The notes under the pieces were generated by a model. It saw only the letters and a list, made by a program, of their open reading frames with translations, did not search any database and had not been told where the DNA came from. DNA of 64,000 nt, taken from NCBI GenBank assembly GCA_000687975.1, contig JIAB01000001.1, forward strand, positions 1,550,001 through 1,614,000. The letters are read 5' to 3'. Origin of the DNA: Lachnospiraceae bacterium AC2031. GTDB lineage: Bacteria; Bacillota; Clostridia; Lachnospirales; Lachnospiraceae. Positions 1 to 43,940 of the stretch are shown in pieces (position 1 is the first letter of the stretch; each line of letters begins with the position of its first letter). The position numbers were made by a program, and so were the translations under genes.

Positions 1-727
1 CAGCCTTCTTGACCGAATCATAGAAGCTGTGTCCGTTCATGTACATTCCAGCGATAACAGAGCTTATGATATCTCCTGTACCACTTCTGTCCTCTCCGAT
101 CCTGTCCACCATAACGATCTGAGGATCTTCGCCCTTACTATAGATATAGTTCATTATCTGTTTCTTGTGAAATGGAATTCCTGTAACCACAATGTGATCA
201 GGACCCTTTGCAGAAAGCTCGACGCACATGTCATGCAGATCGTCTACGCTGAATTTTCCATTTCCGAAATCCTTATCAAGAAGCGTGCATAGCTCTGTAA
301 GATTTGGAGTAAGGATATTAGCGTAACCAACCAGTTCCTTCATCTTCTCACACATTTCAGGAGTATATGTCTTGTAAAGCTGTCCATAATCTCCCATAAC
401 AGGATCGATAAGGATCACAGATTTATCCGTCTTAAATGTCTGAATAAAATCTGTAACTATATCAACCTGTTCCTTAGAACCGAGGAATCCCGTTGCGATT
501 CCGTCGAATTCCATATTCAGATTTTTATATGTCTGAATGTAGTCCCTCATCTTTGGGGTATAGTCATCAAAGAAATACTCAGGGAACTGTGTATGTGTCG
601 ATAAGATTGCTGTAGGTATAGTAACCGCCTGTATCTTCATGACTGATATAATTGGTGCCATTACAGCTATGGAGCATCTTCCAAAGCCTGTAACGTCATT
701 TATTAGCGCCATTTTTTTCTGTTGCAT
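1..727 (-). CDS. pdxY: Pyridoxamine kinase, 3' end cut by window edge
   Basis: This is a ribokinase-fold vitamin B6 kinase that phosphorylates pyridoxal or pyridoxamine with ATP in the salvage route to PLP. The visible 242 residues begin MQQKKMALINDVTGFGRCS, which is the PdxY/PdxK substrate-binding start. They include the DPVMGDYG strand and end just after DRSGTGD, the family's ATP/anion-hole motif with the catalytic Asp. Family members are about 280 residues, so roughly 40 C-terminal residues lie outside the window. The ATG at 727 follows a good AGGAAG site. Assignment to kinase is firm; the choice between PdxY and a bacillary-type PdxK is less certain. Confidence 0.9.
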   Translation of the reverse strand, partial: MQQKKMALINDVTGFGRCSIAVMAPIISVMKIQAVTIPTAILSTHTQFPEYFFDDYTPKMRDYIQTYKNLNMEFDGIATGFLGSKEQVDIVTDFIQTFKTDKSVILIDPVMGDYGQLYKTYTPEMCEKMKELVGYANILTPNLTELCTLLDKDFGNGKFSVDDLHDMCVELSAKGPDHIVVTGIPFHKKQIMNYIYSKGEDPQIVMVDRIGEDRSGTGDIISSVIAGMYMNGHSFYDSVKKA

Positions 728-22442: not shown

Positions 22443-23444
22443 CTAACCTAATTTTGAATGAATATAGCTCTTCAAACCATCTTCTGATTTTAAATCATAC
22501 TGTTTTCCTATATACCTAAAATACTCAGTTATTGCCTTCTTAGATATAATCTCATTAGATTTAACATCATCGCCATAACCTCTTCGAGCATTTACCCAAG
22601 GAGTTTCATGATGTGTTATTTTTTCCAGTGTTTTACCACCATACATTCCAAACGTATCAACAACTAAATCAATAACCTCTTTCTCTTCAGCAGATAAATT
22701 ATCTTTCGATCCATTAAATAAAGCAAAACGAGCATCATCTATTGGATTATACTTAAAATCTCTAAACAACTCAAAAACCTCATAATATACAGGACCATGT
22801 ATCCAAGCTCTACAATCCTCTTCAAATATAGGTGTATCATATAATGCTGAGTATATACCCTGAACATAATAAAGAAGCTTTTGTAGCATTAATGGAGTTA
22901 CTTCCTCTAATTTATTAAATATATAAGCTATAACCCTTATCATCTTTGGAGAAATCGAGAATAGTTTTTCAGTGCTTTCAACAGCCCCGATTGCTTTTCG
23001 AAATGCAGTTTCAGATATTTTATCTCTATTATCAAAAAGGCATTTTTTCATGTATTCCGGAGAAGTAAGCGCAGTCTTTATCACATCTGAATATTCTTTT
23101 GATGGTATCTGCCCTTCCAAATATCTAGTAATTGTAATTTCTCCAAATCCAAGAGCAAGCGATAAAGGAGCTTTTCCAATCTTATATATGCTCATTAATT
23201 TCTGTATATCATTAATGCTTACCAACCCTTCCGCCTCTCTATACTGTTTATCAATTTCTCTAATATTATAATCGAGCAGCCCTGGGAAACTTAATTCTTC
23301 GCCACATTCAGAACATATAGCTGTTGTAATCGTAAAACTATACTCTTTGTCTTTTATTATTTTTTTAATATCTTTTTTCTTCAGATAATATTCTACTTCT
23401 TTGCGACATCCTATACAGAAGTCTCTTCTTTCCTTCGCTAACAT
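22443..23444 (-). CDS. Antitoxin fusing an MqsA-type zinc finger/HTH to a Panacea (SocA-like) domain
   Basis: 333 residues. Residues 8-50 contain two Cys pairs (CIGCRKEVEYYL and ICSECGEELSFPG), an MqsA-like zinc finger. Residues about 75-115 are a helix-turn-helix (MSIYKIGKAPLSLALGFGEI, then TITRYLEGQIP). Residues 170-330 are a Panacea/DUF4065 domain (LQKLLYYVQGIYSALYDTPI, then AWIHGPVYYEVF). Panacea domains serve as antitoxin chaperones. The toxin partner ends 16 bp upstream. AAGGAG precedes the ATG at 23444. Confidence 0.88.
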   Translation of the reverse strand: MLAKERRDFCIGCRKEVEYYLKKKDIKKIIKDKEYSFTITTAICSECGEELSFPGLLDYNIREIDKQYREAEGLVSINDIQKLMSIYKIGKAPLSLALGFGEITITRYLEGQIPSKEYSDVIKTALTSPEYMKKCLFDNRDKISETAFRKAIGAVESTEKLFSISPKMIRVIAYIFNKLEEVTPLMLQKLLYYVQGIYSALYDTPIFEEDCRAWIHGPVYYEVFELFRDFKYNPIDDARFALFNGSKDNLSAEEKEVIDLVVDTFGMYGGKTLEKITHHETPWVNARRGYGDDVKSNEIISKKAITEYFRYIGKQYDLKSEDGLKSYIHSKLG

Positions 23445-23460
23445 ATCAACCATCTCCTTT

Positions 23461-23850
23461 TTATCTAAAATAGTAATTTAATGGATAATGTTGTTCATGA
23501 AATGAAATCACAATCACATAATTGTTTTCCAACTTGTTAAATTTAATGTAGAGTGAAACTGTCACTTCTTCAGTTCCAGTTCTCTCCAGCAATTGAACAT
23601 CCTTTCCAAAAATATATAGCATTTCATGTTCAAATCCAACATGTTCGTTTTGTACTATTTCAGAAAAATCCATAACCTCCAAACTCAGTATGATATCTTT
23701 TGCTTTAGATTCATCAATAACATAATTAATGAACAAATCAATATTATCCTGTCTTCTACTATTACGATCCAATCTATATCTGTCTTCAGATACCGCCTTT
23801 TTTACATCTGAGAGATATTCTTCAATCTCCTCTTGAGTTATATTCTTCAT
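23461..23850 (-). CDS. MqsR-like toxin of the Panacea toxin-antitoxin pair
   Basis: 129 residues. The pattern SRRQDNIDLFINYVIDESKA, LSLEVMDFSEIVQNEH, LYIFGKDVQLL and VIVISFHEQHYPLNYYF is that of MqsR/RelE-fold toxins found with MqsA- or Panacea-type antitoxins. MqsR cleaves mRNA on or off the ribosome; this member is not characterised. It is upstream of its antitoxin, the usual MqsR-MqsA order. The ATG at 23850 follows GGAGGATAGAATA. Confidence 0.75.
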   Translation of the reverse strand: MKNITQEEIEEYLSDVKKAVSEDRYRLDRNSRRQDNIDLFINYVIDESKAKDIILSLEVMDFSEIVQNEHVGFEHEMLYIFGKDVQLLERTGTEEVTVSLYIKFNKLENNYVIVISFHEQHYPLNYYFR

Positions 23851-23881
23851 TATTCTATCCTCCATATAATCAAATTAATGA

Positions 23882-23951
23882 ATGATAGCTTTTTTGATAT
23901 TTCCTATCATTAGGATAACCTGATGATAGCATTTTGTCAATACTCTATCAT
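23882..23951 (-). promoter_or_regulatory. Toxin-antitoxin promoter with two identical inverted-repeat operators
   Basis: ATGATAG-N15-CTATCAT occurs at 23882-23910 and again at 23923-23951, 41 bp apart. Between and across them on the minus strand lies a sigma-A promoter: TTGACA (23940-23935), 17 bp, TATCCT (23917-23912). Both operators overlap promoter elements, as expected for autorepression by the MqsA-like HTH. Confidence 0.8.
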
Positions 23952-24223
23952 TGAAATTCTGAATTAGTTATCCGGCCAGATGCAAAGGCTTCAAAAGAGT
24001 CTCTTAGTTCTATTTTTATCTTGTTAATAAGACTTGTTTGCTTATCTATATTTTTCTTCAGACTTACTCTTTGGTTGCGAATGTCCAAACAGAATTAAGT
24101 AACTATTTCAGACAAATGAACTGCCCCCGCATCATGCAAAGATTTTGCCATCAAATAATATAAACCTATCATTCCTTCATTTTCTATAAGTTCAAATTCT
24201 TCTGATGCCTTCTCTATCGGCAT
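23948..24223 (-). pseudogene. 91-codon frame with one in-frame stop
   Basis: ATG at 24223 follows GGGAGGAGATGAA. The frame MPIEKASEEFELIENEGMIG ... LSEIVT meets TAA at 24097-24095, then continues in the same frame as FCLDIRNQRVSLKK ... LRDSFEAFASGRITNSEFQ to TGA at 23950. The second part resembles the coiled-coil ends of serine recombinases but is too short to assign. The first 42 codons could still be a real small protein. Its 3' end overlaps the toxin operator. Confidence 0.45.
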
Positions 24224-29040: not shown

Positions 29041-29075
29041 TTCATCTCCTTAAACTCTCTTGAATATAAAACTGT

Positions 29076-29265
29076 AATAAACTTTTACAAGCCATTCCGA
29101 AAAACAAACACATCAGTTTCGGAAAACAAATAAATTATAACATAGATTATCATGGTTTCAATGTCACTATTCATCAAAAAAAGACATATCGTAGCTACTA
29201 TTACGTAACTACGATATGCCATATTTCCTTTTATTTTTATGCTATAGGATGTCGTAAATGGAAAA
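29076..29265 (-). repeat. Dispersed terminator-promoter repeat, copy E
   Basis: It contains the terminator hairpin (29185-29218) for the helicase gene side, then TTGAAA (29161-29156) and TATAAT (29139-29134) directed at the gene at 29040. Like copy B, its upstream end joins TTTACGACATC to CTATAGCATAA, a deletion scar of the small membrane gene. Confidence 0.88.
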
Positions 29266-29270
29266 ATATC

Positions 29271-31522
29271 TTACCCATTAACTATATACTGATATATATC
29301 CTCTCTCACCGGTGTTTCCAGCTTCCACTCTATCTCAACCGCGGTCTTATCAGTATTCGGCATAATAAATGGTCTTGTAAATCCTGTAGCTGTCATTCTA
29401 CCAAGATAATAGAACTCCTTGGAGATTTTATCGTCTTTATTCTTTCTCACGAAAAGTTCAACATCTATGCCGCGTTCCTTTGCATGAAGGAAGTTCTGTA
29501 CATCTTCTGATTCAACAGTTCTACTCTGCTTTGATATTGCAATGAGTGAGCTGCGGGATGTGAAATGATCTTCGTACTTTATAGTATCCTGAATGTCATC
29601 ACTTTTATCATAGTTGATGAATACCGGAAATGTCTTAGTAGTCTTATCATACTTATAACCACCAATATTAAGTGGCACTTCATTATGCTCCCAGTTAAGA
29701 AGTCGACATGCATCTTCGTAGGTATACTTCTGATACAGCACTAGCTCTGTATCTTGGTATGTCTTTGAATAATCACGCTCGTATCTGTATCTTCCGAATT
29801 CAAGAAGCTCTTTCACAATGTCGTAGAACTCTTTGTTATGAATCATTTTCTGTAGAGGCTTGCTTATCTCGAAGTCACCATCCCGGCTCTTCTCGATAAA
29901 TACACAATCCTCGTAGGTCTTCTTTCCGGAACCGGATGGGAACTCATTTGTAAGTACATTCACGACACTCTTCACAACCTTGTCCGGGCAATCCTTGTTG
30001 TAATTCTCCTTTAGCGAAGTCTTCATCCCCTGAACCAGCGTATCATTATAAATCAGCATGCGAGAAAGCATTTCCAGTTCATGTATACGCTTTCCACTTG
30101 CGAGCTTCTTGGAAATGAATTCAACAATCTTCTCCTCATTTGCGGAAAGCCTTACCTTATAATCCTTCTCATACTTCACTAGGAACTTGTAATATGAACC
30201 AAGGGAATTATTGTCGAATATGCGGAGCACATCCATTTCACCGTATCTATCAAAGTCCATCAGGTTTGGAATGCGTCCCAGCTTATATTTCAGATTCTTG
30301 TAGTTTTCTCTGATAAGCTTGATGTCGCTAAAGTTTGCCGTATCGATTGCAGCGTATATCTTCTTCTTGGATATCTCATCAAAATGAATTGTCGAGATTC
30401 CCGGAATAACCTTTTCACCCTCAGTAACATAGCGGCGGATGTTGTCCTTGTTGTAGGTCCTGTCGCCCGAAAGAGCAATCGGAATCATGAAGTTATTCTT
30501 ATAATTGGCAATGAAATCAAGGATAACTACAAAGTCCTTATCGTCAGCCTTTCTAAGTCCACGGCCAAGCTGCTGGACAAATACAATCGGGGACTCTGTA
30601 GGTCGGAGCATAACAACCTGATTCACCTCAGGGATATCAACACCTTCATTGAATATATCCACAGTGAAAATGTAATCGAGATAATCCCCATGCTTTGTTC
30701 CATCTATATCAACCTGAATATCCTTTGTCAGAAGTTCTATCGCAACTTCTCTTTCTTCCTGACTGTCTGCACCTGTGAGTGCCTTTGTCTTATATCCCCT
30801 ATCATTAAAGATTCCACTTAGAGTTTCTGCTTCCTTCCTAGAACTACAGAAGATAAGTCCCTTCACTCTGTCACCTGAATAACCATAGAAGTTCATTTGA
30901 TTAATGATATAATCCACTCTCTTGTCAGACACAAGGAACCTAAAATTCTCAATTTCGGTTTTCTCATCGATTACTACACCATCGATTTCCATATCAGTTA
31001 TACCGAAGTAATGGAATGGACAGAGGAGATTTTCCTCCATAGCCTGCTGAAGTCTAATCTCAAGAGCAATGTTGTGATCAAATGTCGCGAACACATCAAA
31101 GTCATCTGTACGTTCAGGAGATGCAGTCATACCAAGCCAGAATTCCGGTTCAAAATAATCCATAATCTTCTGATAACTAGCCGCTCCTGTTCTATGAGCC
31201 TCATCTATTACTATGGTTTTAAAACAGTCCTTAGAAAACTGATTCATCACTTCTTCCTTTGACATCATTTGCATTGTAGCAAAGAGAATATCCGCATCAG
31301 TATCCTTGCTATTACCAGAAAGAAGTCCGTATGTCTTACTTCGACCGAATACATTTTTATATGACTTCATCGCCTGCTTTGCAATCTGCTCACGGTGGAC
31401 AATGAAAAGAATGCGGTTAGATTTCTTAGAATTATTCTTGAAACCACTCTTCACATTACCATCATTATCACCCATAGCATCACGGAGTCCGAAGGCAGAT
31501 GCGTACGTTTTGCCCGTCCCAG
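29271..31522 (-). pseudogene. DEAD/DEAH helicase with DUF3427-type C-terminus, 5'-truncated
   Basis: An open frame of about 750 codons. The frame begins right after a TAA with SGTGKTYASAFGLRDAMG, the Walker A motif, so everything upstream is missing; homologues carry a PLD-type nuclease domain and the Q region there. Further motifs are intact: ILFIVHREQ (Ia), IVIDEAHRTG (II), GMTASPERTD (III) and QLGRGLRKADDKDF (VI). The C-terminal half (DUF3427-type) ends EDIYQYIVNG. An internal ATG at 31475 lacks Walker A, so any product could not hydrolyse ATP. Known helicases of this group are linked to DNA repair or defence. Confidence 0.85.
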
Positions 31523-33323: not shown

Positions 33324-34433
33324 CTACCTATAATTTAAAGATGTTTGTCTCGAAACGGAAAGCACCAACCCTATTTCTGTTAATAATATTGACAATGATG
33401 TACCACCATAGCTTATAAAAGGAAGTGTCACTCCTGTATTAGGTAAAATATTAGTTACAACACACATATTCAATAGTGTCTGTGATGCCAGATGCGCTAT
33501 AACCCCTACAACAATCAATGAACCAAACAAATCATAAGCTTGATCAGCTATATACTTAAGCCTCCATAGCAACATCAAGTATACTGCAATTATTCCTGCC
33601 GCTCCAAATACACCTAGTTCTTCGCATACTATTGCAAATATCATATCATTTTGAGCCTCTGGTATAAAGCCTCTCTTTTGGGCACTCTGTCCTAATCCCT
33701 TTCCAAAAAATCCTCCAGTTCCTATAGCATATAATGACTGCATTGTTTGGTATCCAGCATCGGATGTTTCAGGATTAAAGTATGCTGATATTCTATCACC
33801 TCTATATCCTCTTGCTGCGATTAGAACAATTATAACAAGAACTGCTACTCCACCTAAAATAAAAGCATATTGCGGTTTAGGAGTTACAATTATCCAAATT
33901 AATCCTGCTATAGCAACACATATAATGGCTGTACTAAGATTCTCTATTGCTATTATTAGTACTATGGCCATTGGATATATCAATATCTTCAGAGTTCCCA
34001 CAAAAGTTTGCATAGATTTTTGTCTTACTGAGCATATATGTGCCATGTAAAGTATTATGGAAAACTTTGCAAACTCTGATGGTTGGAAACTTATTGGTCC
34101 CAGGATAATCCATCTTGTAGATCCATTCCGTGCTGATCCTATAACATATACTAGTAAAAGCAGTATCCCGGACAGAATCAAAAGTATTTTAGTAATATAC
34201 TTAAAATATTGATATCTAATCCGGGATACAACATACATTCCAACGAATCCTATTATTGCAGCACCAAATTGCTTTATAGCATAATATGCTGGTTTTCCAT
34301 AGTCACGAGAAGACACAAATGAACTCGCACTATACACCATCAATATACCGAATCCTACAAGAAAGAATACATATATAAACAACTGGTAATCCATAGTTTT
34401 CTTATTACTTATGAATATACTTTTGTCAGACAT
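33324..34433 (-). CDS. FtsW/RodA/SpoVE family SEDS protein
   Basis: 369 residues with about ten membrane helices. SEDS motifs: GSTRWIILGPISFQPSEFAK and, near the C-terminus, ITNILPNTGVTLPFISYGGT (PxTGxxLPFxSYGG). The AQNDMIFAIVCEELG segment is the usual large-loop ending. SEDS proteins polymerise peptidoglycan glycan strands with a class B PBP. No PBP gene is nearby, so this is an extra copy and could be cargo. The ATG at 34433 follows GGAGAGAATTAAT. Confidence 0.92.
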   Translation of the reverse strand: MSDKSIFISNKKTMDYQLFIYVFFLVGFGILMVYSASSFVSSRDYGKPAYYAIKQFGAAIIGFVGMYVVSRIRYQYFKYITKILLILSGILLLLVYVIGSARNGSTRWIILGPISFQPSEFAKFSIILYMAHICSVRQKSMQTFVGTLKILIYPMAIVLIIAIENLSTAIICVAIAGLIWIIVTPKPQYAFILGGVAVLVIIVLIAARGYRGDRISAYFNPETSDAGYQTMQSLYAIGTGGFFGKGLGQSAQKRGFIPEAQNDMIFAIVCEELGVFGAAGIIAVYLMLLWRLKYIADQAYDLFGSLIVVGVIAHLASQTLLNMCVVTNILPNTGVTLPFISYGGTSLSILLTEIGLVLSVSRQTSLNYR

Positions 34434-34503
34434 ATTAATTCTCTCCATTTTAATCAGTGAACTATCTATTTATAACTTTAGAAATAATGTCAGCAAACCA
34501 TTT

Positions 34504-34722
34504 TTATAAATACTGATGTAACCAATCTGGCATATTAGGATCATCCAACTCCCAGGAATCCTCCTCGTGTTCATCTTCATCCCAGCTACTTTCATCTCCA
34601 TCAAAAAACTTTTGTCGGTGACACTTGTATTTCACAACTCTATCTCCCTCTAAACGATACTCGTTCCAGTAATAATTTTGCTTGCCATAACCCTTCCATT
34701 CATTAGTTGTATAAATTGTCAT
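34504..34722 (-). CDS. Small acidic protein, 72 aa
   Basis: Starts [20 protein letters not shown] and ends in a very acidic stretch ([20 protein letters not shown]). No family is recognised. The start follows AGGAGGATTGAGCGT. It is the last gene of the NERD/HNH operon; its acidity could suit a nuclease inhibitor or DNA mimic, which is speculation. Confidence 0.6.
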
Positions 34723-34759
34723 ACGCTCAATCCTCCTATATTTTTTATTAGCTGTCTTA

Positions 34760-34981
34760 CTAAAACTTAAAAATATCAATCAAACCCTTATGAACCTTTT
34801 GATGATGGTCATGACAGAGAGTTATAATATTGTCCTTATCAGCCGCACCAGAGAAAGCATAATCTAGTATATGATGTCCCTCTGCATGATCTGAAGATCC
34901 ACAAATCTGGCAAATATTACCATCTCTTTCACGTCCTGCTTTCTGTGCTCGTGTATGAGCAGAAGACCTCTTCTTTGACAT
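34760..34981 (-). CDS. HNH endonuclease, minimal
   Basis: 73 residues forming one HNH domain: [20 protein letters not shown], then [17 protein letters not shown]. The two CxxC/CxxH zinc knuckles and the HH pair are intact. A basic N-terminus ([20 protein letters not shown]) would bind DNA. AGGAGGTGGATT precedes the ATG. It is the fifth gene of an operon led by the Ala/Gly-rich membrane protein. Confidence 0.85.
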
Positions 34982-34991
34982 AATCCACCTC

Positions 34992-35189
34992 CTAATCTTT
35001 TCCTATTCGCTTCTGTCCACCCTGAAGCATTTTTCCAACATTTGACCAAGCTCCACTAGCTGCTGTACCTCTGCTCAAAGGAGCATTTTTCTGTTTTGAT
35101 TTCATAATGTCTCCAAGTATGTTTGCTGCCTGGTTATCTGTTAATCCTGATATTACTGCTACTACCGCTTTATCTTTCTTTCTTGACAT
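34992..35189 (-). CDS. Small basic protein, 65 aa
   Basis: Basic and soluble: MSRKKDKAVVAVISGLTDNQ, AANILGDIMKSKQKN, ending QGGQKRIGKD. No family is recognised. AAGGAGGAAAAGAACC supports the start. It lies between the beta-strand protein at 35205 and the HNH gene, with spacings of 15 and 10 bp, so it belongs to the operon. Confidence 0.6.
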   Translation of the reverse strand: MSRKKDKAVVAVISGLTDNQAANILGDIMKSKQKNAPLSRGTAASGAWSNVGKMLQGGQKRIGKD

Positions 35190-35204
35190 GGTTCTTTTCC
35201 TCCT

Positions 35205-35417
35205 TTAAAAAGTTGTTATTGTAACGTCATCAAACTTGTTTTCTACATAGTTATCGCCAAAACCTATAGTCGTAATGTTTTCCATATCTAAGCGAATGAC
35301 TCCATCATCGTTTCTGACCGGAATGATATCCACTTCACCTGAAACTCTTTCTACCGCAATACACTCCGCGGTAACACTCATTACACGATCACCTTTTTTC
35401 AATATTCCAATCTTCAT
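35205..35417 (-). CDS. Small beta-rich protein, 70 aa
   Basis: MKIGILKKGDRVMSVTAECI, then AVERVSGEVDIIPVRNDDGV and a C-terminal run of Asp/Asn and strands. The alternating hydrophobic pattern suggests a small beta barrel. No family is recognised. It lies 7 bp after the NERD gene stop and has an AAGGAGG site, so it is co-translated with it. Confidence 0.6.
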   Translation of the reverse strand: MKIGILKKGDRVMSVTAECIAVERVSGEVDIIPVRNDDGVIRLDMENITTIGFGDNYVENKFDDVTITTF

Positions 35418-35424
35418 TTTGCTT

Positions 35425-36474
35425 TTACCTCCTTGAACTTTCTGCTATAAAAGCTGCAATACCACCTACTACTACGCCACCAAACATAGCTGCAACCTGA
35501 CTTGTTAATACTTTTCTAATCAAGCTATATGCCGCTTGTCTTTTATTTCTTTTTTCTGATATTTCCTCATCACTTATGCAATCTGCGTCATCAACAGTTT
35601 CTTCTATTTCTTTCTCACCATGTGCATCTTCAAGCATCGCCATAATTACCGCAAAATCATATTTAAACTGGTCTATGTCAAATCTGACAGGGTATGATTC
35701 AAGTTCTTCAGCTATCTTTATTTTTGTACATATATCGTCCATGTCTGACTTTTCATACTTTCTTCCGCTATCGAAACGTTCAATTACATATGTAAGTTGT
35801 GTAAGGAAGCAGGTTTCCATATCCTGATATTTATTCTGTATTTCTACCTTATCGTTAGTAAAAACAACTACTTTATTTACTATGCAGTCTTCATATTCTT
35901 TTCCCAATGCCTTCTTGAGTAGTGCTTCCTTTGTTTCGAATTTTTCTTTAATATTGCTATCCCATCTTAAATATCTGCCCATTCTGTAATAATCACCATT
36001 TTCATCAATAAAGATGTCTCGACCAGTGTTCTTAACTTCTACAATAACCAGTGCTTTCGGAGTAACCACCAGCGCATCAATTTCTGTTCTTTCCCCGTCA
36101 TTTGATAGTTCTATGTTTTTCAGAAGAACGTTCCCATTGTATTTATATGAATCTAATATATTAAATACCTTTGCTTCCCCCTTATTACCTGAGATTATTC
36201 CCCTTATCATATTTGAATAGTCATATACTTCATCGGAGAACTTCTTTATTTCTTCATCAGCTATATTTCCACATTCATTATTAAGTTGAACCAGATGATC
36301 TTTTACATCCCATATTTTTAGATTAGCTATAGATGCATGTTCTTCGTTAAATGTCATCTCAACCATTTCAGCTTGAAGTTTTAATAATTCTGGAAGAAGT
36401 TCATCCCTCTTATATGATTCTTTTTCAAAAGCCTCAAAGTTATTTATAATTTCATTTATTCTTTCTTTACTCAT
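35425..36474 (-). CDS. NERD-domain protein with C-terminal membrane helix
   Basis: 349 residues. Residues 1-95 are helical. Residues about 98-215 are a NERD (nuclease-related) domain: GEAKVFNILDSYKYNGNVLL, then RTEIDALVVTPKALVIVEVK with the D...EVK catalytic-type residues of the PD-(D/E)XK fold. A charged linker leads to a C-terminal glycine-rich membrane helix (MFGGVVVGGIAAFIAESS). NERD domains are predicted nucleases. A membrane-tethered form is unusual. AGGAGGTAGTAGAA precedes the start. An mRNA hairpin separates it from the membrane protein gene upstream. Confidence 0.85.
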   Translation of the reverse strand: MSKERINEIINNFEAFEKESYKRDELLPELLKLQAEMVEMTFNEEHASIANLKIWDVKDHLVQLNNECGNIADEEIKKFSDEVYDYSNMIRGIISGNKGEAKVFNILDSYKYNGNVLLKNIELSNDGERTEIDALVVTPKALVIVEVKNTGRDIFIDENGDYYRMGRYLRWDSNIKEKFETKEALLKKALGKEYEDCIVNKVVVFTNDKVEIQNKYQDMETCFLTQLTYVIERFDSGRKYEKSDMDDICTKIKIAEELESYPVRFDIDQFKYDFAVIMAMLEDAHGEKEIEETVDDADCISDEEISEKRNKRQAAYSLIRKVLTSQVAAMFGGVVVGGIAAFIAESSRR

Positions 36475-36560: not shown

Positions 36561-36902
36561 TTATGTTAGGTTATCTACAACTTCATAGAGTCTGCTCTTT
36601 AGCTTTGCTGTTACCGGATACTTGCTAACCTTAGCCTTGATAGACTCCTTGGATTCTCCTCCTTTGTAGAGTTCTTTTAGAACTGCCTCTGCAACTTTAT
36701 CGAATCCATATTCTGCTATGAGATCTGCAAGTGCACCTATTGCACATAAGGTCATCACCCCTCCGATCATTCCTCCTGGTCCTAATGCTGCAAGAGCTGC
36801 TGTAAGTGCCGCCGCTCCGGTAAAACCCGTAAGCTCTATTGCAACCATTAGTATCAATCCAGGAACTCCCAACGCTGCTACTTTTTTAATAATTGTGTCC
36901 AT
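36561..36902 (-). CDS. Ala/Gly-rich membrane protein, first gene of the NERD operon
   Basis: 113 residues from the ATG at 36902, which follows AAAGGAGAAAAAAGT. Two hydrophobic Ala/Gly segments with glycine-zipper spacing (VPGLILMVAIELTGFTGAAA, then LAALGPGGMIGGVMTLCAIG) are followed by a soluble helical tail (KVAEAVLKELYKGGESKE). It could oligomerise in the membrane like small pore-forming or effector peptides, but this is inference. Its promoter carries the GCAAC operator array shared with the HTH-PIN-ankyrin operon. Confidence 0.65.
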   Translation of the reverse strand: MDTIIKKVAALGVPGLILMVAIELTGFTGAAALTAALAALGPGGMIGGVMTLCAIGALADLIAEYGFDKVAEAVLKELYKGGESKESIKAKVSKYPVTAKLKSRLYEVVDNLT

Positions 36903-36954
36903 ACTTTTTTCTCCTTTCATTAATGAATACTTTGGTTTCTTTGCTTGTGAGTAC

Positions 36955-37125
36955 ACTTTACAATATTGTTGCGTTTTAATCAATAGTTTTGGTGCATATC
37001 GCAACACGCGCAACAAAGTTGCAACTCAACCCACTATTTAGGCTTGTATTGCAACAGTTGCAACTTTTCTGCAACAACTCATAAAAATCAAGTGTTTTTT
37101 GCAACTTTTTGAGACTTTTTGCAAC
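36955..37125 (-). promoter_or_regulatory. Promoter with GCAAC operator array 1
   Basis: GCAAC occurs at 37001, 37010, 37021, 37051, 37060, 37071, 37101 and 37121, and the inverted GTTGC at 36968. This gives a 50 bp period with sites at +0, +9 and +20 in each unit (the +9 site is lost in the third). The promoter on the minus strand is TTGATT (36983-36978), 17 bp, TAAAGT (36960-36955), with the GTTGC site in its spacer. The arrangement matches array 2 at 42245-42364. Confidence 0.85.
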
Positions 37126-37133
37126 TTTTCAAT

Positions 37134-37168
37134 AAAAAAAGACTAGGTTAAACGACATAACCCAGTCT
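37134..37168 (-). terminator. Intrinsic terminator of the PIN/radical-SAM operon
   Basis: AGACTGGGTTA / TAACCTAGTCT with an 7 nt loop followed by TTTTTTT on the minus strand, about 30 bp after the phosphoribosyltransferase stop. It separates that operon from the NERD operon. Confidence 0.9.
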
Positions 37169-37198
37169 ATTTATATCTATTTTCAAATAATTTATTGT

Positions 37199-37702
37199 TT
37201 ATAATTGATTAAATAATCGCATTGTTGTATCCGGTCCAACTTCGCCTATCTGTTTTTTTACATTCTTACCCACAAAAGAGTTTTTCGACACCCTTACCGT
37301 ATAGAGATAATCTTTAAACTTAGGAACAGCTTTTTCATTTATTACACAACAGGCAACCTTCATATCGGGATCCAGTATTTCCAGAAGCGTCTTTCCAGTA
37401 TTTATGACAGAATCCACAAGAATAATATTCTTAGTTTTCGGTCTTACAAATGAATCATGCTTAGGATCGTATGTCTGAAACTTGCACCCCATAGCAAAAT
37501 ACATCCCCTCCGCAAAGAAGATTCCTCCTCTAAGCATTGCGACAATCGTTGTATCTTCCGGTGCAAGTCCCTTTATCTGACTACCCAAAGCCCTTCCAAG
37601 CTTAATATGAGCCTTAGCCAACTCTGGTCCCGATATTCCGGAGTCGGATTTGGTTATGGCAATCAATTTATTTATTTCTTCTGTTTTTTCCAATTCAAAC
37701 AA
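37199..37702 (-). CDS. Phosphoribosyltransferase (type I PRTase fold)
   Basis: 167 residues. The PRPP-binding motif is IILVDSVINTGKT (residues about 92-104). VAMLRGGIFFAEGMYFAMG is the usual PPi-loop region of uracil or orotate-type PRTases. The base substrate is not predictable. The start is TTG at 37702, overlapping the kinase-HAD stop by 8 bp, so expression is coupled. It is the last gene of the HTH-PIN-ankyrin/radical SAM operon. Confidence 0.8.
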   Translation of the reverse strand: MFELEKTEEINKLIAITKSDSGISGPELAKAHIKLGRALGSQIKGLAPEDTTIVAMLRGGIFFAEGMYFAMGCKFQTYDPKHDSFVRPKTKNIILVDSVINTGKTLLEILDPDMKVACCVINEKAVPKFKDYLYTVRVSKNSFVGKNVKKQIGEVGPDTTMRLFNQL

Positions 37703-38750
37703 TGATTAAGCCCTCCATATCTCTTCCTTTTAAGGATCTGCTGATGGATCCATCATTCTTTGCGATAAGATATCCTTCATCAGCCTGTTTAAGCATAAAA
37801 TAATCGTTCATCCCATCACCATAAGCAATCACTTTCTTCCCTGCTGACTGAAGATACTTTGTAATGAATAGTTTTGTTTCAGCAGACATTTGTTTTCCAG
37901 AAAAAAAATCTATCCCAAGATATTTAGAAATATTACTCCAAATTCGTTTATGACCTGAAGTCAGAATAAAAGTATCTTCCGTAATAGCAGTTTTGACCTT
38001 CTCATTAAAATGAACTGGAATTTCTGTAAGATTTTCTTCAAATGAATATTGTTTAAATTCTTCATCTTGTTTCCAGGTTTGATAACCTGTATAGAAATTA
38101 CCATCATACAAATGTGTTTTATATCCAAACACGGCACTACTACTATCTTCAATAGTTAGTGTTTTATCTCCATCCATCAGAACAACAGTATCTGTCTTGG
38201 ATTTCTTAATAATATAATCCGCACACATTCTCGCATAAGTAATATTGCTATAGCCATTTATGATGTCTTTGATGAATCTAATAATACAAGATATATCTTC
38301 AAAATAGTTTGTTGGAGGATTATCTATGACATAGAAATCCTTTCCATTATCATGGCAATATTGTCTTAATCCATCTATTTCTAGTTTCTGCCATTCGTTA
38401 ATATCATATTTTAAATATTTACGATTCTTATCAGATAATTCCATTCGTTTTTTTATAATATCTGGAGATATATAGAGATATAAAAATACATCATATAACT
38501 CCCCATCATCCTCGGTGAATGCTATTTCATCCCCAAACGCATAATGGCCATCCATGATAAGATTTTCCTTTTCTTTCAGCTGACGAGCTAACACTTTTCT
38601 ATCTCGTTCTCTTCCAGCTGCATCACGGCTATCAAAATCAGGATCATACTCTTTTAGACATTTACTTCCATTTACTACCTCAATAAAATATATCTGGTTC
38701 AATATATGAGTTTTTCCTACTGATGGCATTCCATATAACCCTATACGCAT
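37695..38750 (-). CDS. P-loop kinase fused to HAD phosphatase
   Basis: 351 residues in two domains. Residues 1-165 are a small P-loop kinase with Walker A GMPSVGKT (7-14), a LID-like Arg segment (KKRMELSDKNRKYLK) and NLIMDGHY. Residues about 185-350 are a HAD phosphatase with VVLMDGDKTLT (DxDxT/L nucleophile), FILTSGHKRI (motif II Ser/Thr), the Lys of motif III and VIAYGDGMNDYFML (motif IV). A kinase and phosphatase in one chain suggests nucleotide or RNA-end processing, as in polynucleotide kinase-phosphatases. It overlaps the radical SAM gene by 10 bp and the PRTase by 8 bp. Confidence 0.85.
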   Translation of the reverse strand: MRIGLYGMPSVGKTHILNQIYFIEVVNGSKCLKEYDPDFDSRDAAGRERDRKVLARQLKEKENLIMDGHYAFGDEIAFTEDDGELYDVFLYLYISPDIIKKRMELSDKNRKYLKYDINEWQKLEIDGLRQYCHDNGKDFYVIDNPPTNYFEDISCIIRFIKDIINGYSNITYARMCADYIIKKSKTDTVVLMDGDKTLTIEDSSSAVFGYKTHLYDGNFYTGYQTWKQDEEFKQYSFEENLTEIPVHFNEKVKTAITEDTFILTSGHKRIWSNISKYLGIDFFSGKQMSAETKLFITKYLQSAGKKVIAYGDGMNDYFMLKQADEGYLIAKNDGSISRSLKGRDMEGLIIV

Positions 38751-39553
38751 ACCGTCTCCTTATAGCAATTGTTTCTATCAAAATCTAAAGAAATCCGTTC
38801 CAGCTCTTCAAATGACATACCACTAGTTCCCACAGGAGGCAAATCAATACAGTTGCCACAATAATACACATTGCCGTTGGCAAAGAAATAGTTATTAATC
38901 CCTGCGCCACACTTTCCACCATACATAGTACAATCATTTCCACCGCGCCTTATTAGCAATATCTCTTCAGCGATTTTTAAGAAATATCTATACTCTTGAA
39001 GAGATATTCCATACTTTCCGATCATTCGAGAAAAAGTAATCCTTGTTCCAAAGGGTTTAAAAAATGAAAACACTCTACTTGCATTATCCAGGCTTTCCCT
39101 TCCAACTGTCGCATTAAATGTCGGATAATGCCCTGTTATATTTTTATAATTCTCCACATTATCCATAGCCCGATCAAATGAATCACATCGATACAAATTA
39201 TGCAGTTCCCTGTATCCATCAATCGAAAACCCGACATTTACCTTATGACTCTCTAAAAAAATCCAATCATCCTCTGAAAGATCAACTGTTCCATTAGTAA
39301 TGGTGTATATACTAATATTTGGCGCATCTTCAAGATATGCAATATAAGACTTTAGCTTCGGCCACTCCAGAAAGCACTCACCATTTCCAACAAACCCTAT
39401 CTTGAACTTATTTCTAGTGTATCTCTTTACATTATCTAAAATCTCAAACACATCCATATCCGCAGTTTCAATCTTTCCTTTTTCATGGAAATGACAATAT
39501 CTGCAAGCTAAGTTGCACTGATTATTAATTGAAATACATATTCTATCAATCAA
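38741..39553 (-). CDS. Radical SAM enzyme
   Basis: 270 residues. The Fe-S motif is CNLACRYCHFHEKG (CxxxCxxC, residues 13-20). GFVGNGECFLEWPKL is the SAM-binding GGE-like strand. The C-terminal CTMYGGKCGAGINNYFFANG and VYYCGNCIDLP give four more Cys, a shortened SPASM/twitch-like auxiliary cluster. Such enzymes often modify peptides or nucleotides. The start is TTG at 39553 after GGGAGTG. It follows the second HTH-PIN-ankyrin gene by 6 bp. Confidence 0.85.
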   Translation of the reverse strand: MIDRICISINNQCNLACRYCHFHEKGKIETADMDVFEILDNVKRYTRNKFKIGFVGNGECFLEWPKLKSYIAYLEDAPNISIYTITNGTVDLSEDDWIFLESHKVNVGFSIDGYRELHNLYRCDSFDRAMDNVENYKNITGHYPTFNATVGRESLDNASRVFSFFKPFGTRITFSRMIGKYGISLQEYRYFLKIAEEILLIRRGGNDCTMYGGKCGAGINNYFFANGNVYYCGNCIDLPPVGTSGMSFEELERISLDFDRNNCYKETVCV

Positions 39554-39559
39554 CTTTTT

Positions 39560-40843
39560 TCACTCCCTAACCCAGCTATTTCGTATAAACTCATCCCATC
39601 TATCTTCAGCTGATAAACCTTCATGATCAAGAATTGTTACATCGGCTCCAGCCTCCTCAATAATCCTTCGACAACGTTTATTTCCTTTTATGCAAGCCTT
39701 GATTAAAGCTGTAAATCCATTTCCATCCTGTTGATTTAGGCTGACTCGTTTATCAGCGCACAAATCCTTAACCATTTCCTCCTGTTCCTCCCATGCTGCA
39801 ACCATCAGAGGCATATTCCCATCATTCTTCTGTCTTATCTTGCCAACATCATAAGGATTTCGACTTCCTATATTAGGGTTTGCACCACATTCATTAAGAA
39901 GAAAAGAGAACATCTTATAATCATGCTTCTTTATTGCATGTGTAATAGGCGGAAAATTTTTACTTTCTCTATCTCTACGATTAACATCTGCTCCATTTTT
40001 TATAAGCCATCGTATTTTTTCTCTTCGCTGTTCAAAATTAGCAGAACAATTATCAACAGCCGAAATAATAAGCGTTGATCCATCCGCCAAAAAACAATTC
40101 CACTCATCTTCACTTAGAGAATTAATTCTAATTCCTAACACATCCTCAATATCATCGTATGAATTTGCATAGTAATCATTTATAGCGTTTAAAGCAATCC
40201 AATTGACAAGTTTCTGCTTCGTAGCTGCGTACTCTTCCAAGAATAAAAGGTTATAAGGACTCTTTTCTGTTATAGAACCTTTAATTTGAAGAGCACGCGG
40301 AACATCATTAGTAATAATATCCACATCACAACAAAGCTCCTCAGAAACAGCATTCGCTATATCAATGATAACCATTTCGGATGTACTCGGAATAGAATAA
40401 CTTTTTGTCTGTATTCTTTCATTTCTTCGAATCTTAGTTATCAAATCCAGTGCCCTACCACCAAGCTCATTTGCATTATTATTTTTTATGTTTTTCAAAT
40501 CATCTATTACAAATCCTGGGATAAAAACGCAACTATATTCTTCACTAAGCTCCCCCAAAAGATCCGGTCTTGTTAAAAGTGCAGACGTATCCACCACTAC
40601 TGCTCTTTCACCTCGAAGAAATAGTTTTTTCTGTTTTTCTGTCATTCCAAGCACATCACAGTATTTCTCAGCGAATTCATGGACTTTATTAAAACTGGTT
40701 TCTCCACCTATTTTTTCAGCTCTAGATAGTGCTGATTTACTAATGTGAATAGCATTAGCCATCTGAGTAATTGTATAATTATTTTTTTCACGAAGTTGAG
40801 TCATTCTTCGTCTTAAAAAATCTGTTTTCATCATTATATCCAC
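39560..40843 (-). CDS. HTH-PIN-ankyrin protein, copy 2
   Basis: 427 residues. Residues 12-67 are an XRE helix-turn-helix (NNYTITQMANAIHISKSALS). Residues about 82-205 are a PIN-type ribonuclease domain: VVVDTSALLTRPDLL with Asp85, FVIDDLKNIK with Asp114/115, Asp161 and DVDIITND (Asp173-180). Residues about 265-420 are ankyrin repeats (GADVNRRDRESKNFPPITHA, CGANPNIGSR, GNGFTALIKACIKGNKRC). The start is GTG at 40843, after AAGGAGTAAGTC. The paralogue is 28 bp upstream, and the radical SAM gene follows by 6 bp. Confidence 0.85.
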   Translation of the reverse strand: MDIMMKTDFLRRRMTQLREKNNYTITQMANAIHISKSALSRAEKIGGETSFNKVHEFAEKYCDVLGMTEKQKKLFLRGERAVVVDTSALLTRPDLLGELSEEYSCVFIPGFVIDDLKNIKNNNANELGGRALDLITKIRRNERIQTKSYSIPSTSEMVIIDIANAVSEELCCDVDIITNDVPRALQIKGSITEKSPYNLLFLEEYAATKQKLVNWIALNAINDYYANSYDDIEDVLGIRINSLSEDEWNCFLADGSTLIISAVDNCSANFEQRREKIRWLIKNGADVNRRDRESKNFPPITHAIKKHDYKMFSFLLNECGANPNIGSRNPYDVGKIRQKNDGNMPLMVAAWEEQEEMVKDLCADKRVSLNQQDGNGFTALIKACIKGNKRCRRIIEEAGADVTILDHEGLSAEDRWDEFIRNSWVRE

Positions 40844-40871
40844 GACTTACTCCTTCCAGCTATACAGCGGT

Positions 40872-42194
40872 CTATTTACGATTCTTTTTATATCGCCTAT
40901 TATCATTACCTCTATTATATTTTTTTTCATTTGGTCCATTTTCCAAAAACGCATGATAATGATCCATAAATGTCAATCCATTAATATCCACTATTTTTTC
41001 ATCCGCATTATACTCTTGGAGAATATCTCTACATCTTGTATTTCCATTCATACAAGCCTTCATCAAAGCAGTAAACCCATTTCCATCCTGCTGATTAATA
41101 CTTGTTTTTGAATTTTGACATAATAACCGAACTATATCTTCGCGTCCATGATAAGCAGCAACCATAAGCGGCATATTTCCTTCATTCTTATGACGTACAT
41201 ATCCTGATTCAAATGGATCTCTGCTACCCACATTAGGATCAGCATTACATTCATTCAAAAGAAATTTAACCATTTCAACATCATTTTTTTGTACAGCATG
41301 AGTCAATGGAGGAAAGTATCTTCTACCGCAATCCCTCTTGTTTACATCTGCCCCACAACTTATCAACCATAGTATTTTTTTCTTACGTTGTTCAAATGAA
41401 ACACCATTTTTACGAACCACCGAAATAATCATCGTGTTTCCATCTTTTAAATAACCATTAGCTTCTTCTATAGTAGGACGTTCTGCTTCTTCATACGAAT
41501 CTAAATATAATGAATTAAAACTATCTAATCTATCCATATTTAGAAGCTCTTGCTTTTTCTTCATATAATCTTTTAAATGAATTGCTGAAATCGAATCATC
41601 ACCCTTGAGATATGCAGAATAATCTGTATCCTCCGTAATGATATCTACCTTACAGCTATATTTTGCAGAAGAATTACGTGCTATACTTATAATCTTACAG
41701 TCATTATTTACATCCTGCTTAGTATCAGTATATTTTTCTAGAATAGTTTTCTCTCCGTAGCTTATCCCACGAATAATTTCCCATGCTTTCTTTGCAAGTG
41801 TAGTATTGTTATTATGATTTTTAATGTTACCTAGCTCATTCATAACCACATCAGGAATGACAACTTTGCTGTATTCTTTATTTAACTCATCAATAAGTTG
41901 AGCATTTTTAAGCAACGCAGATGTATCTGGGATCGCTATCTTATCACCTCTCATAAACTGTTCAGTCTGGCTTTTTGACATGCCAAACACCTGACAATAT
42001 TTCCTGGCCATATCAAGTAAAGTTTTTTCACTGGTTTTCCCAGATTCAACTCTTGAAATAGAAGATTTATTAGGCGCAATACCATTGTCATATTTCGCCA
42101 GTTTTTGAGTCATTTCTTCCATCGTACAATTATTTTTTTCACGAAGTTCTTTTAATCGAATGCATAGAAACGCAACATCTGATTTATTATCCAT
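40872..42194 (-). CDS. HTH-PIN-ankyrin protein, copy 1
   Basis: 440 residues. Same three-part layout as copy 2: XRE HTH at 14-68 (NNCTMEEMTQKLAKYDNGIA), PIN domain at about 86-212 with Asp90 (AIPDTSALL), Glu120 (VVMNELGNIK), Asp165 and Asp184-191 (VDIITEDTDY), and ankyrin repeats at about 275-415 (GADVNKRDCGRRYFPPLTHA). The tail is basic (KKYNRGNDNRRYKKNRK), fit for nucleic acid. The full acidic set suggests an active RNase. The promoter has the GCAAC operator array, so this HTH is the likely regulator of both operons. GGAGGGCGATTCTTT precedes the ATG. Confidence 0.85.
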   Translation of the reverse strand: MDNKSDVAFLCIRLKELREKNNCTMEEMTQKLAKYDNGIAPNKSSISRVESGKTSEKTLLDMARKYCQVFGMSKSQTEQFMRGDKIAIPDTSALLKNAQLIDELNKEYSKVVIPDVVMNELGNIKNHNNNTTLAKKAWEIIRGISYGEKTILEKYTDTKQDVNNDCKIISIARNSSAKYSCKVDIITEDTDYSAYLKGDDSISAIHLKDYMKKKQELLNMDRLDSFNSLYLDSYEEAERPTIEEANGYLKDGNTMIISVVRKNGVSFEQRKKKILWLISCGADVNKRDCGRRYFPPLTHAVQKNDVEMVKFLLNECNADPNVGSRDPFESGYVRHKNEGNMPLMVAAYHGREDIVRLLCQNSKTSINQQDGNGFTALMKACMNGNTRCRDILQEYNADEKIVDINGLTFMDHYHAFLENGPNEKKYNRGNDNRRYKKNRK

Positions 42195-42244
42195 AAAGAA
42201 TCGCCCTCCTTTGGATTATTTTGGCTTTGATAACTTATAATCTC

Positions 42245-42364
42245 ATTATAAACCATGTTGCGTTTTGTGCAATATAATCCAGTGATTTTGCAACAATTTT
42301 TTACAATGCGCAACACAAACTCTCTATCTGTTGAGATACGCAACAAAAAGAAATTATATGCAAC
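42245..42364 (-). promoter_or_regulatory. Promoter with GCAAC operator array 2
   Basis: GTTGC at 42257 and GCAAC at 42290, 42310, 42340 and 42360. The offsets from GTTGC are +33, +53, +83 and +103, identical to array 1 (36968, 37001, 37021, 37051, 37071). On the minus strand TTGCAC (42272-42267), 16 bp, TATAAT (42250-42245) form the promoter, with GTTGC in the spacer and AAAACGCAACA identical in both promoters. The last site lies within the recombinase coding end. Confidence 0.85.
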
Positions 42365-43940
42365 TTACGATTCCAAGTCTCTTTTGGAACTTCCATAGTA
42401 TCTCTATCTCGTTATCGACACCGATACAAATCTTATCTATAAAGATATTCTCCAGTTCCTTGTTCATCTCTTCTACATTGGTTATCGTCTCCACTGATGT
42501 AAGCTCGGACTTAATCTCTTTTATCTTCCTTGTGATGTTCTTCTTTTCGACTTCAAGTTCTAGCTTCCTGGCATCATATTCCCTGATCAAGGCATCGTTG
42601 TTCTTCTTCACTTCCAGATATTCTTCTTTGGTCAAAACTTGGTCGTGGTAATTCTCGTATGCTATCCTCAAGTCACCCTTCAGCAGATTTATTCTTTCAT
42701 TAATGTCTGCAATGGACTCCTTTACGGTATTCAACTCACCATATGCTAGATTACTCTTACCGCATATGATTCTATCTATATCTACTTGTTCTTTTATATA
42801 CTTATTCAAACTCGATACGACAACTTGTTCTATATCTTTTTGAAGTACTGATTTTACACAGCTATCACAAGATCTATCGCTATATATCGTAGAGCAAAAA
42901 TACTTCGGATTTCCATTACCATTATAACTAAGTTTCTTGCCACACCCTTTGCAATACAGCTTTCCAAATACGCTTTTCCGTCGTTTAAGATTTGCAGTAT
43001 TTGAAGAAGTGATTCCAAAACTATTATTATTTCTCATCTTCTCTTGAACGGCTTCAAAGTCTTTTCTTCGGATTATCGCTTTATGGCAATGTTCTATAGT
43101 CTTCCATTCATCCTTTGAAATTAGTTTCTTTTTCTTAGAACCGGTTGATGCAGCCTCAGCTTTTCCATAGGTTATATTACCAATATAAATATCATTATGA
43201 AGTATTCTGCTGACTGCAGCATTCGACCATACCGCTGTTGCTATATCTTTTCTATGCGTAGTGGATAAACCTTTTTCATATTGATATCTAGCCGGACACG
43301 GAACACCTTCTGCATTAAGATCTTTTCGAATTGCATACATAGATTTTCCATCTAGATATTCTTTGAAGATTCTCTTCACTATTACAGCTGAAGATTCATC
43401 GATTTCAAGCTTATGCTTATCACACTCGAATTTCTTATATCCATACGGTGGTGAAGTGGCTATATATTTACCACTCGCTCTTTTTGTATGTAGAGATGAT
43501 TTAACCTTCTCTGACAAATCTTCACTATACATATCATAAAGGATTTCCTTGAAAGCTATGTCTATACCGCCGACTCCACCTATTGTTCTGTCGCTGTCAT
43601 AATTATCATTTATAGCTATGAATCTGACACCCATAAAGGGAAATATCTGCTCTCGGTATTTACCGCACACAATCTGATCTCGGGAGAATCTGGACATATC
43701 CTTTACGATAACACAGTTTATCTCACCAGCCTTTACCAGATTCATCATACGTTCAAATCCGGGACGATTCTCACTCTTTCCGGATAGACCATCATCTTTG
43801 AATTCATAGCAGTCATACTGCCTTAAATCCTTATGAGCAAAAATGTATTCTTTTATATATATTCTCTGATTCTTTATACTGTTACTCTCATCAGCTCCTT
43901 CTTCCTCTTTGGAAAGTCTGAGGTACATTGCAAGTTTCAT
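42354..43940 (-). CDS. Large serine recombinase 3
   Basis: 528 residues. The resolvase domain has the catalytic Ser in MYLRLSKEEEG (Ser10), with DDGLSGKSENRPGFERMMNL and VIVKDMSRFSRD (Arg residues). The recombinase domain (about 155-280), a zinc-ribbon segment (LYCKGCGKKLSYNGNGNPKY) and a C-terminal coiled coil follow, ending ICIGVDNEIEILWKF. It overlaps the upstream recombinase by 4 bp. Three such enzymes in a row probably act together in integration and excision. Its last codons contain one GCAAC operator site of the neighbouring operon. Confidence 0.92.
   Translation of the reverse strand: MKLAMYLRLSKEEEGADESNSIKNQRIYIKEYIFAHKDLRQYDCYEFKDDGLSGKSENRPGFERMMNLVKAGEINCVIVKDMSRFSRDQIVCGKYREQIFPFMGVRFIAINDNYDSDRTIGGVGGIDIAFKEILYDMYSEDLSEKVKSSLHTKRASGKYIATSPPYGYKKFECDKHKLEIDESSAVIVKRIFKEYLDGKSMYAIRKDLNAEGVPCPARYQYEKGLSTTHRKDIATAVWSNAAVSRILHNDIYIGNITYGKAEAASTGSKKKKLISKDEWKTIEHCHKAIIRRKDFEAVQEKMRNNNSFGITSSNTANLKRRKSVFGKLYCKGCGKKLSYNGNGNPKYFCSTIYSDRSCDSCVKSVLQKDIEQVVVSSLNKYIKEQVDIDRIICGKSNLAYGELNTVKESIADINERINLLKGDLRIAYENYHDQVLTKEEYLEVKKNNDALIREYDARKLELEVEKKNITRKIKEIKSELTSVETITNVEEMNKELENIFIDKICIGVDNEIEILWKFQKRLGIVSCI

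Follow-up and report, generated by a model that had tools for sequence, protein, structure and literature searches.

What reads the two arrays of a single pentanucleotide that stand ahead of neighbouring operons in Lachnospiraceae bacterium AC2031, and do these arrays join the operons into one regulon? The arrays, composed of GCAAC (GTTGC on the opposite strand), lie in a 64,000-nucleotide stretch of contig JIAB01000001.1 (the window, to whose numbering coordinates refer unless a locus is named) upstream of two sets of genes that we take, from their spacing and strand, to be operons. Operon A, with Array 2 upstream, encodes a helix-turn-helix (HTH)-PIN-ankyrin protein (HPA), its paralogue HPA2, a radical SAM protein, a protein with kinase-like and HAD domains (the kinase/HAD protein), and a phosphoribosyltransferase-like protein; operon B, with Array 1 upstream, encodes a small membrane-like protein, a NERD-domain protein, the small proteins p70 and p65, a 73 amino acid HNH-domain protein, and p72 (Table 1). 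We consider it likely, from comparison of sequences, that the two arrays are operators of one self-contained two-promoter regulon, read and probably repressed by the system's own HPA.

Re-reading of the window bore out every array coordinate given in the initial annotation and added two inverted GTTGC copies in Array 1, at 37018 and 37057. A search for GTTGC-28-GCAAC-15-GCAAC-25-GCAAC-15-GCAAC allowing up to 3 mismatches returned three matches in the window, all exact, two of which overlap within Array 1 (36968 and 37018) while the third is Array 2 (42257), as expected from the earlier claim that both arrays share the offsets +33, +53, +83, and +103. This five-site geometry was found at no further place in the window and in none of 100 dinucleotide shuffles of it. 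The three-site core GCAAC-15-GCAAC-25-GCAAC has three matches in the whole 3.19 Mb genome, all inside Arrays 1 and 2, and its reversed control has none in the same 3.19 Mb. The annotation had also placed GTTGC in the promoter spacer about 65 bp from the start codon and had noted a sequence identical at both promoters; the distance measures 63 bp in Array 2 (start 42194) and 60 bp in Array 1 (start 36908), and AAAACGCAACA, on the transcribed strand, is common to both. The offsets of Array 2 recur in loci L020, L021, L028, L029, and L046.

Arrays of this kind accompany HPA in other genomes. Among the 397 genomes of the family, an HPA match of any kind at E 0.001 is present in 13, and a near-full-length homologue of at least 50% identity in 4, one of them the window's own; the four-site pattern occurs in these same 4, with 8 matches that all lie at an HPA or operon B promoter and 0 for reversed controls in the listed genomes. 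A peptide-pattern scan of 84,980 species, each represented by a single genome, found 44 HPA loci, 28 of which (L027-L054) have at least 43% identity over a long match or its 3' part, with usable upstream DNA in 26 (not L030 or L049). At least three GCAAC copies at the expected offsets, allowing shifts of 1-3 bp that keep the steps of 20 and ~30 bp, precede HPA in 17 of the 26. A long form, with additional sites at +133 and +153, precedes operon B in L021, L022, L028, L035, L045, L046, L088, and L094. Both operons are preceded by such arrays in L021, L028, L035, L045, L046, L088, and L094, in support of the proposal that one regulon spans the two, and L022 has a full operon B array with a weak HPA array (+33 and +82 only). 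L030 has the long-form array before an apparently decayed NERD gene: from position 4278 of that locus the operon B array is intact, with only a short NERD-like reading frame behind it.

A looser pattern, searched in 32 genomes with HPA, gave 40 matches in 20 genomes (reversed controls, 4). Because 37 of the 40 fall at the system by coordinate mapping, the regulon seems to contain only these promoters; the three others lie in G232 (contig 1), G730 (contig 51), and G723 (contig 1). The geometry is kept over genera, and this comparison shows the arrays to be under selection and tied to one system.

The spacing of the sites is rigid. Across 427 pair distances in 31 arrays (20 HPA and 11 operon B promoters), which were picked because they bear arrays and include near-relatives, a period of 10.0 bp fits with a mean cosine of 0.85; a period of 10.5 bp fits poorly (0.08), and random placement of sites gave at most 0.14 in 500 trials. 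Consecutive gaps of 20 bp make up 39 of 77 in the HPA promoters and 16 of 65 in the operon B promoters. Two sites separated by 20 bp face almost the same side of B-DNA, and to this extent the earlier view that the sites share a helix face stands; the full array does not share one, unless the DNA is wrapped or overwound, as the best period is 10.0 and not 10.5 bp. As in a direct-repeat operator, the same word recurs in the same orientation and at fixed spacing at a promoter. One further copy is inverted: an exact GCAAC precedes the best -10 hexamer by 6-7 bp in 30 of 30 promoters, and in 21 of 30 it starts 5 bp after the end of the best -35 hexamer, so that this copy usually falls between -35 and -10. 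The -35 calls are mechanical best matches, which in several promoters pick a poorer hexamer than one chosen by eye; for operon B the mechanical choice is TTAAAA, unlike the TTGATT chosen by eye.

The operator word varies with the HTH of HPA. When HPA genes are grouped by the predicted recognition helix, GTTGC pairs 19-21 bp apart are found in 26 of 29 upstream regions of genes with KS[STA]xSR and in 0 of 12 with other helices, a grouping made after viewing the data and among relatives, for which a Fisher value is not a true probability. This was a largely favourable outcome for the expectation that homologous operons would carry periodic sites. The 41 rows compared comprise 34 of the 44 genome loci (L030, L049, L055-L058, L062, L067, L069, and L070, being truncated, HTH-less or without usable upstream DNA, were left out), together with L020, L079, L081, L082, L083, L084, and the window; the viral loci L080 and L085 were left out, and L021/L032 and L022/L048, which from their equal lengths appear to be identical records, were each counted once. 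L053, whose helix is DPTVISK, has 6 copies of TGCCA, five upstream and an inverted one within the promoter spacer, against a mean of 0.84 and a maximum of 4 in 1000 shuffles. In L059, whose operon starts with NERD and where an array was expected, TGTGCA was found de novo before the first gene (6 copies, where 1000 shuffles gave 0.60 on average and never more than 3).

The most telling case is L082, from a collection of viral contigs. Its p70 and HNH proteins are 100% identical to those of the window, its p72 98.6%, its NERD protein 80%, and its three enzymes 67-78%, whereas its HPA is only 32% identical. Over 34483-36474 the two DNAs are 90% identical, up to the base with which the NERD gene and its start codon begin; no blastn match covers the promoter and array segment, and similarity resumes at 37200. 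TGTGCA arrays stand at both L082 promoters, each with an inverted copy, TGCACA, inside the promoter, and GTTGC is absent from both; the operon B promoter has 9 copies of TGTGCA (in 1000 shuffles, 0.54 on average and 4 at most). When a tree is built from the PIN-ankyrin part, leaving out the HTH, L059 groups with L082 (100/99, with a warning from the tool about long branches) and L053 falls within the GTTGC group without a resolved position. In operon B, by contrast, L082 is nearest to the window (NERD protein 80% identical, against 39% for L059). Thus L082 combines a near-window operon B and a foreign HPA with TGTGCA at both promoters, which argues that the word follows HPA and not the neighbouring genes. 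Because the words change with the HTH type of HPA, and do so at both promoters, HPA very probably reads the operator word at both, and the regulator named in the initial annotation, an HTH-PIN-ankyrin protein, appears to be the right one. Common to the three words are steps of ~20 bp and the inverted promoter copy; the remaining layout differs.

Several observations weigh against this reading. Nine of the 26 loci lack three sites at the expected offsets (L031, L039, L043, L048, L050, L051, L052, L053, and L054), although most of them still keep two copies 20-21 bp apart, and L031, L039, L050, and L052 have only two sites. Three of the 29 genes with the matching HTH lack a GTTGC pair, namely L048, L054, and L043, which has 164 bp of upstream DNA in which TGCCG is the top word (p 0.03). 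Taken singly, the rows with the matching HTH have a GTTGC-type word on top at p<=0.05 in 19 of 28 cases. In L031, L039, L040, L050, L051, and L052 the inverted promoter copy departs from the exact word, the second array of L027 precedes a lipoprotein-like gene and not NERD, and 12 of the 32 HPA genomes have no match to the looser pattern. The KS[STA]xSR grouping and the words of L053 and L082 were found by looking, and for L053 the test of exact 20/30/50 bp spacing gave p 0.105 though the word test gave 0/100. The distant HPAs L063-L066, L068, L083, and L084 have no clear array. Finally, HPA homologues share ancestry, and the counts are therefore not independent. In the archaeal loci L060 and L061, TTGTAA words before HPA are suggestive only (6-mer p 0.08 and 0.03, 100 shuffles).

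The comparison of genomes supports the word, the geometry, the two promoters, and the correspondence of HTH and word; we infer binding, cooperativity, the sign of control, the signal, and the purpose. The XRE-like HTH of HPA would recognise GTTGC, and dimers or larger assemblies of HPA would sit upstream of the promoter on direct repeats paired at 20 bp and following a 10 bp lattice, an occupation that would help to load the single inverted copy between -35 and -10. Since the promoters are near consensus and the last site lies inside them, occupation would most likely repress both operons, which for operon A would amount to negative autoregulation; operon B, whose longer array has more sites, would be silenced more tightly. 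Both operons would be released together by a signal, which the enzymes perhaps produce or the ankyrin domain perhaps senses. The purpose of the system is perhaps defence, which the restriction-like genes and mobile element in the neighbourhood make plausible.

HPA might instead be an activator that, from direct repeats at about -54 and -74, recruits RNA polymerase, with the spacer copy tuning transcription or shutting it off at high dose. The shortest arrays (L031, L039, and L052) retain two upstream copies 20-21 bp apart, and the direct-repeat binder lambda CII is itself an activator, but most of the promoters already have near-consensus -35 and -10 hexamers and the inverted copy lies where RNA polymerase binds; we regard activation as unlikely. 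Much less probable is that a host regulator unrelated to HPA reads the arrays, for instance one of the LacI type like CytR, which has GTTGCA in its box. CytR boxes, as excerpted from PMC3454398, contain GTTGCATT, possibly as direct repeats, but in the searched genomes the strict pattern is found only with HPA and only at this locus, the looser pattern nearly so, and the word differs with the type of HPA. A role for the repeats in recombination or attachment, as sites used by the adjacent serine recombinases, is scarcely credible: the +103 site of Array 2 does lie inside the 3' end of a recombinase gene (42354-43940), over its last codons, and recombinase homologues occur near the system in L037, L044, L088, and L100, yet Array 1 is 5 kb off at another promoter, arrays occur in loci without a recombinase match (e.g. 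L021 and L028), and their position is fixed relative to the promoter boxes. Chance or simple-sequence repetition, which could account for 9 of the 12 viral stretches with the loose pattern (GC-rich repeats or repeats within reading frames), we count as already refuted by the 0 of 100 shuffles, the conservation over genera, and the confinement of the strict pattern to HPA genomes.

Repression by HPA on its own operators also admits a bolder version, to which we attach little weight: HPA would be a promoter-bound nuclease that polymerises as an exact 10 bp lattice and wraps DNA, its PIN domain cutting nascent transcripts of the two operons, and regulator/word pairs would form interchangeable dialects, comparable to the immunity specificities of phages, by which mobile copies of the system sharing a cell avoid regulating one another.

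Direct-repeat operators are a known kind, of which the present arrays are a variant. Lambda CII reads TTGC repeats near -35 that are spaced one turn apart and is an activator; it shares direct repeats with the arrays described here and differs in its one-turn spacing, in activation, and in the protein. The Omega repressor of plasmid pSM19035 is a ribbon-helix-helix protein on contiguous heptads, whereas here an HTH protein would occupy widely spaced pentamers. The available text of PMC4752584 names CII as a direct-repeat binder, and Omega, named there as well, is a repressor bound to direct and inverted repeats, as are the subjects of titles cited in PMC3874152. According to the same portion of PMC4752584, solved structures of proteins on direct repeats were few (the Protein Data Bank of 2015 contained three others), and the C repressor of phage P2, an HTH protein, binds cooperatively to two direct repeats of 8 bp each, 22 bp apart centre to centre, at a promoter. 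The present case resembles P2 C in having an HTH protein and direct repeats about two turns apart at a promoter. It differs in that the two P2 repeats flank the -10 element and the protein has 99 amino acids, whereas here as many as 8 copies lie upstream, spaced on a 10 bp lattice, with one inverted promoter copy and a protein that has PIN and ankyrin parts. The CytR box GTTGCATT, in direct or inverted arrangement, shares the word; the protein is of another family (LacI), and the excerpt of PMC3454398 contains no fixed multi-site array. A literature search that excluded most subscription papers found no description of an HTH-PIN-ankyrin system; PMC8195603 and PMC3710099, which concern PIN domains, ankyrin repeats, and HTH motifs, describe other systems in the parts available. 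It is unusual for a regulator on a rigid lattice to carry PIN and ankyrin domains. The interest of the system is that it is conserved, often mobile, and tied to a regulator whose DNA code is legible in the sequence, with three operator words for three HTH types on the same promoter plan; L082, as a natural specificity swap, makes HTH-operator recognition and cooperative loading directly testable.

Table 1 Genes, promoters, and arrays of the HPA system in the window, with the array plans for the three operator words (offsets in bp)
Feature	Position or offsets	Strand	Remarks
HPA, proposed regulator	40872..42194	-	XRE-like HTH ~4-82, PIN ~85-206, ankyrin repeats ~220-420; Pfam and structure model
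HPA2, HTH-PIN-ankyrin paralogue of HPA	39560..40843	-	44-46% identical to HPA
Radical SAM protein, 270 aa	38741..39553	-	family searches
Adenylate-kinase-like P-loop domain fused to SerB-like HAD domain	37695..38750	-	Pfam, model, fold search
Phosphoribosyltransferase-like protein	37199..37702	-	Pfam
Small membrane-like protein	36561..36908	-	first gene of operon B here; no Pfam family
NERD-domain protein	35425..36474	-	hydrophobic C-terminus by eye
p70, conserved small protein	35205..35417	-	100% in L082
p65, conserved small protein	34992..35189	-	98.5% in L103 (same contig as L082)
HNH-domain protein, 73 aa	34760..34981	-	100% in L082
p72, conserved small protein	34504..34722	-	98.6% in L082; no Pfam family
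Array 2 (operon A promoter)	42257..42364	-	GTTGC 42257; GCAAC 42290, 42310, 42340, 42360; offsets +33, +53, +83, +103
Array 1 (operon B promoter)	36968..37125	-	GTTGC 36968, 37018, 37057; GCAAC 37001, 37010, 37021, 37051, 37060, 37071, 37101, 37121
Sigma-A-like promoter of operon A	42240..42275 (extent approximate)	-	-10 TATAAT; inverted GCAAC copy in spacer
Promoter of operon B	36950..36988 (extent approximate)	-	GCAAC in spacer; by eye TTGATT ... TAAAGT
GTTGC array plan	0 (inverted), 33, 53, 83, 103, (133, 153)		
TGTGCA array plan	26, 58-60, 78-81, 91-94, 111-114		L082 HPA promoter without 78-81; L082 operon B promoter also 36
TGCCA array plan	30, 69, 88, 108, 127		

The Pfam matches to the HTH are all below curated cut-offs (HPA, HTH_19 1.8e-4; HPA2, HTH_31 6e-5 and HTH_3 2.9e-4). 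The model of HPA (mean pLDDT 85.9) has a helical N-terminus, and the 50 Protein Data Bank matches listed for it include ankyrin-type chains and fusions. Its PIN domain matches PIN_4 above the cut-off (3.4e-10), and across 36 sequences D90 and D189 are invariant and E120 and D165 nearly so; we take these four to be the catalytic residues, two of which differ in HPA2 (D for E120, E for D165). The kinase/HAD protein, fused to the phosphoribosyltransferase-like protein in L020, L021, L036, L037, and L053, was modelled with a mean pLDDT of 94.4, and among the fold matches listed, those to one part are mostly adenylate and shikimate kinases, and those to the other are mostly HAD domains of the SerB-like or P-type ATPase kind. 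A polynucleotide-kinase reading of this protein was dropped, as the fold search gave adenylate kinase and SerB-like matches instead. For the radical SAM protein the best named family is HxsB-like (2.3e-19), and its identification as a viperin was rejected (35.4 bits against a cut-off of 180, 6.3e-9; PADLOC pVip weak, at 39 bits). The system is like prokaryotic viperins with nucleotide kinases in placing a radical SAM protein beside a nucleotide-kinase-like domain, and unlike them in that the protein is closer to the HxsB-like family than to viperin. A PADLOC search of eight of the eleven proteins of the two operons gave no strong match to known defence systems, weak matches for HPA (PDC-M72A, 5e-13), HPA2, and the radical SAM and NERD proteins, and no match at all for the kinase/HAD, phosphoribosyltransferase-like, membrane-like, and p72 proteins.

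HPA had no match in plasmids, and among phages only three records matched, all to its ankyrin part. The system occurs in an Anaerobiospirillum sp. (L050; Pseudomonadota) with two GTTGC copies 20 bp apart, perhaps by transfer between phyla. Viral contigs contained 12 stretches with the GCAAC pattern, 3 of which belong to the system (L080, L088, and L094). In the remaining 9, blastp detected no gene of the system, and GTTGC is absent from the position 33 bp ahead of the first site. L087, a candidate orphan array with steps of 30, 21, 31, and 20 bp, proved to be rich in GC and to lie within long reading frames; the others were set aside as tandem or coding repeats (L093 and L096 tested only for lying within a reading frame). 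A viral search for TGTGCA arrays gave 11 stretches, 2 of them from the L082 contig, and the other 9 have no system gene by tblastn; among the contigs without one, L101, L105, L108, and L110 have clusters of TGTGCA/TGCACA, perhaps operators of other repressors.

On one side the system adjoins a mobile element (42354-64000) with three tandem serine recombinases, RepA_N, and MobA/MobL, followed by a RecQ-like helicase, a DNA methyltransferase, a Vsr-like protein (these last two named from the sequence by eye), an AspBHI/Mrr-type endonuclease, and another helicase. On the other side, 29271-31475 encodes a type IV restriction-like helicase (PADLOC mREase_IV, 5.6e-169), and 29064-30644 is 86% identical in DNA to the same-genus genome G160, a comparison in which no match was reported for 34.5-46 kb. 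The DNA at 22443-23968 is 95% identical to L082 3913-5438, which lies just upstream of HPA in that locus, while the window stretch is ~17-20 kb from HPA. A FtsW/RodA/SpoVE-like gene (33324-34448) adjoins operon B and, since a 96% identical protein stands beside the same system in L103, may travel with it.

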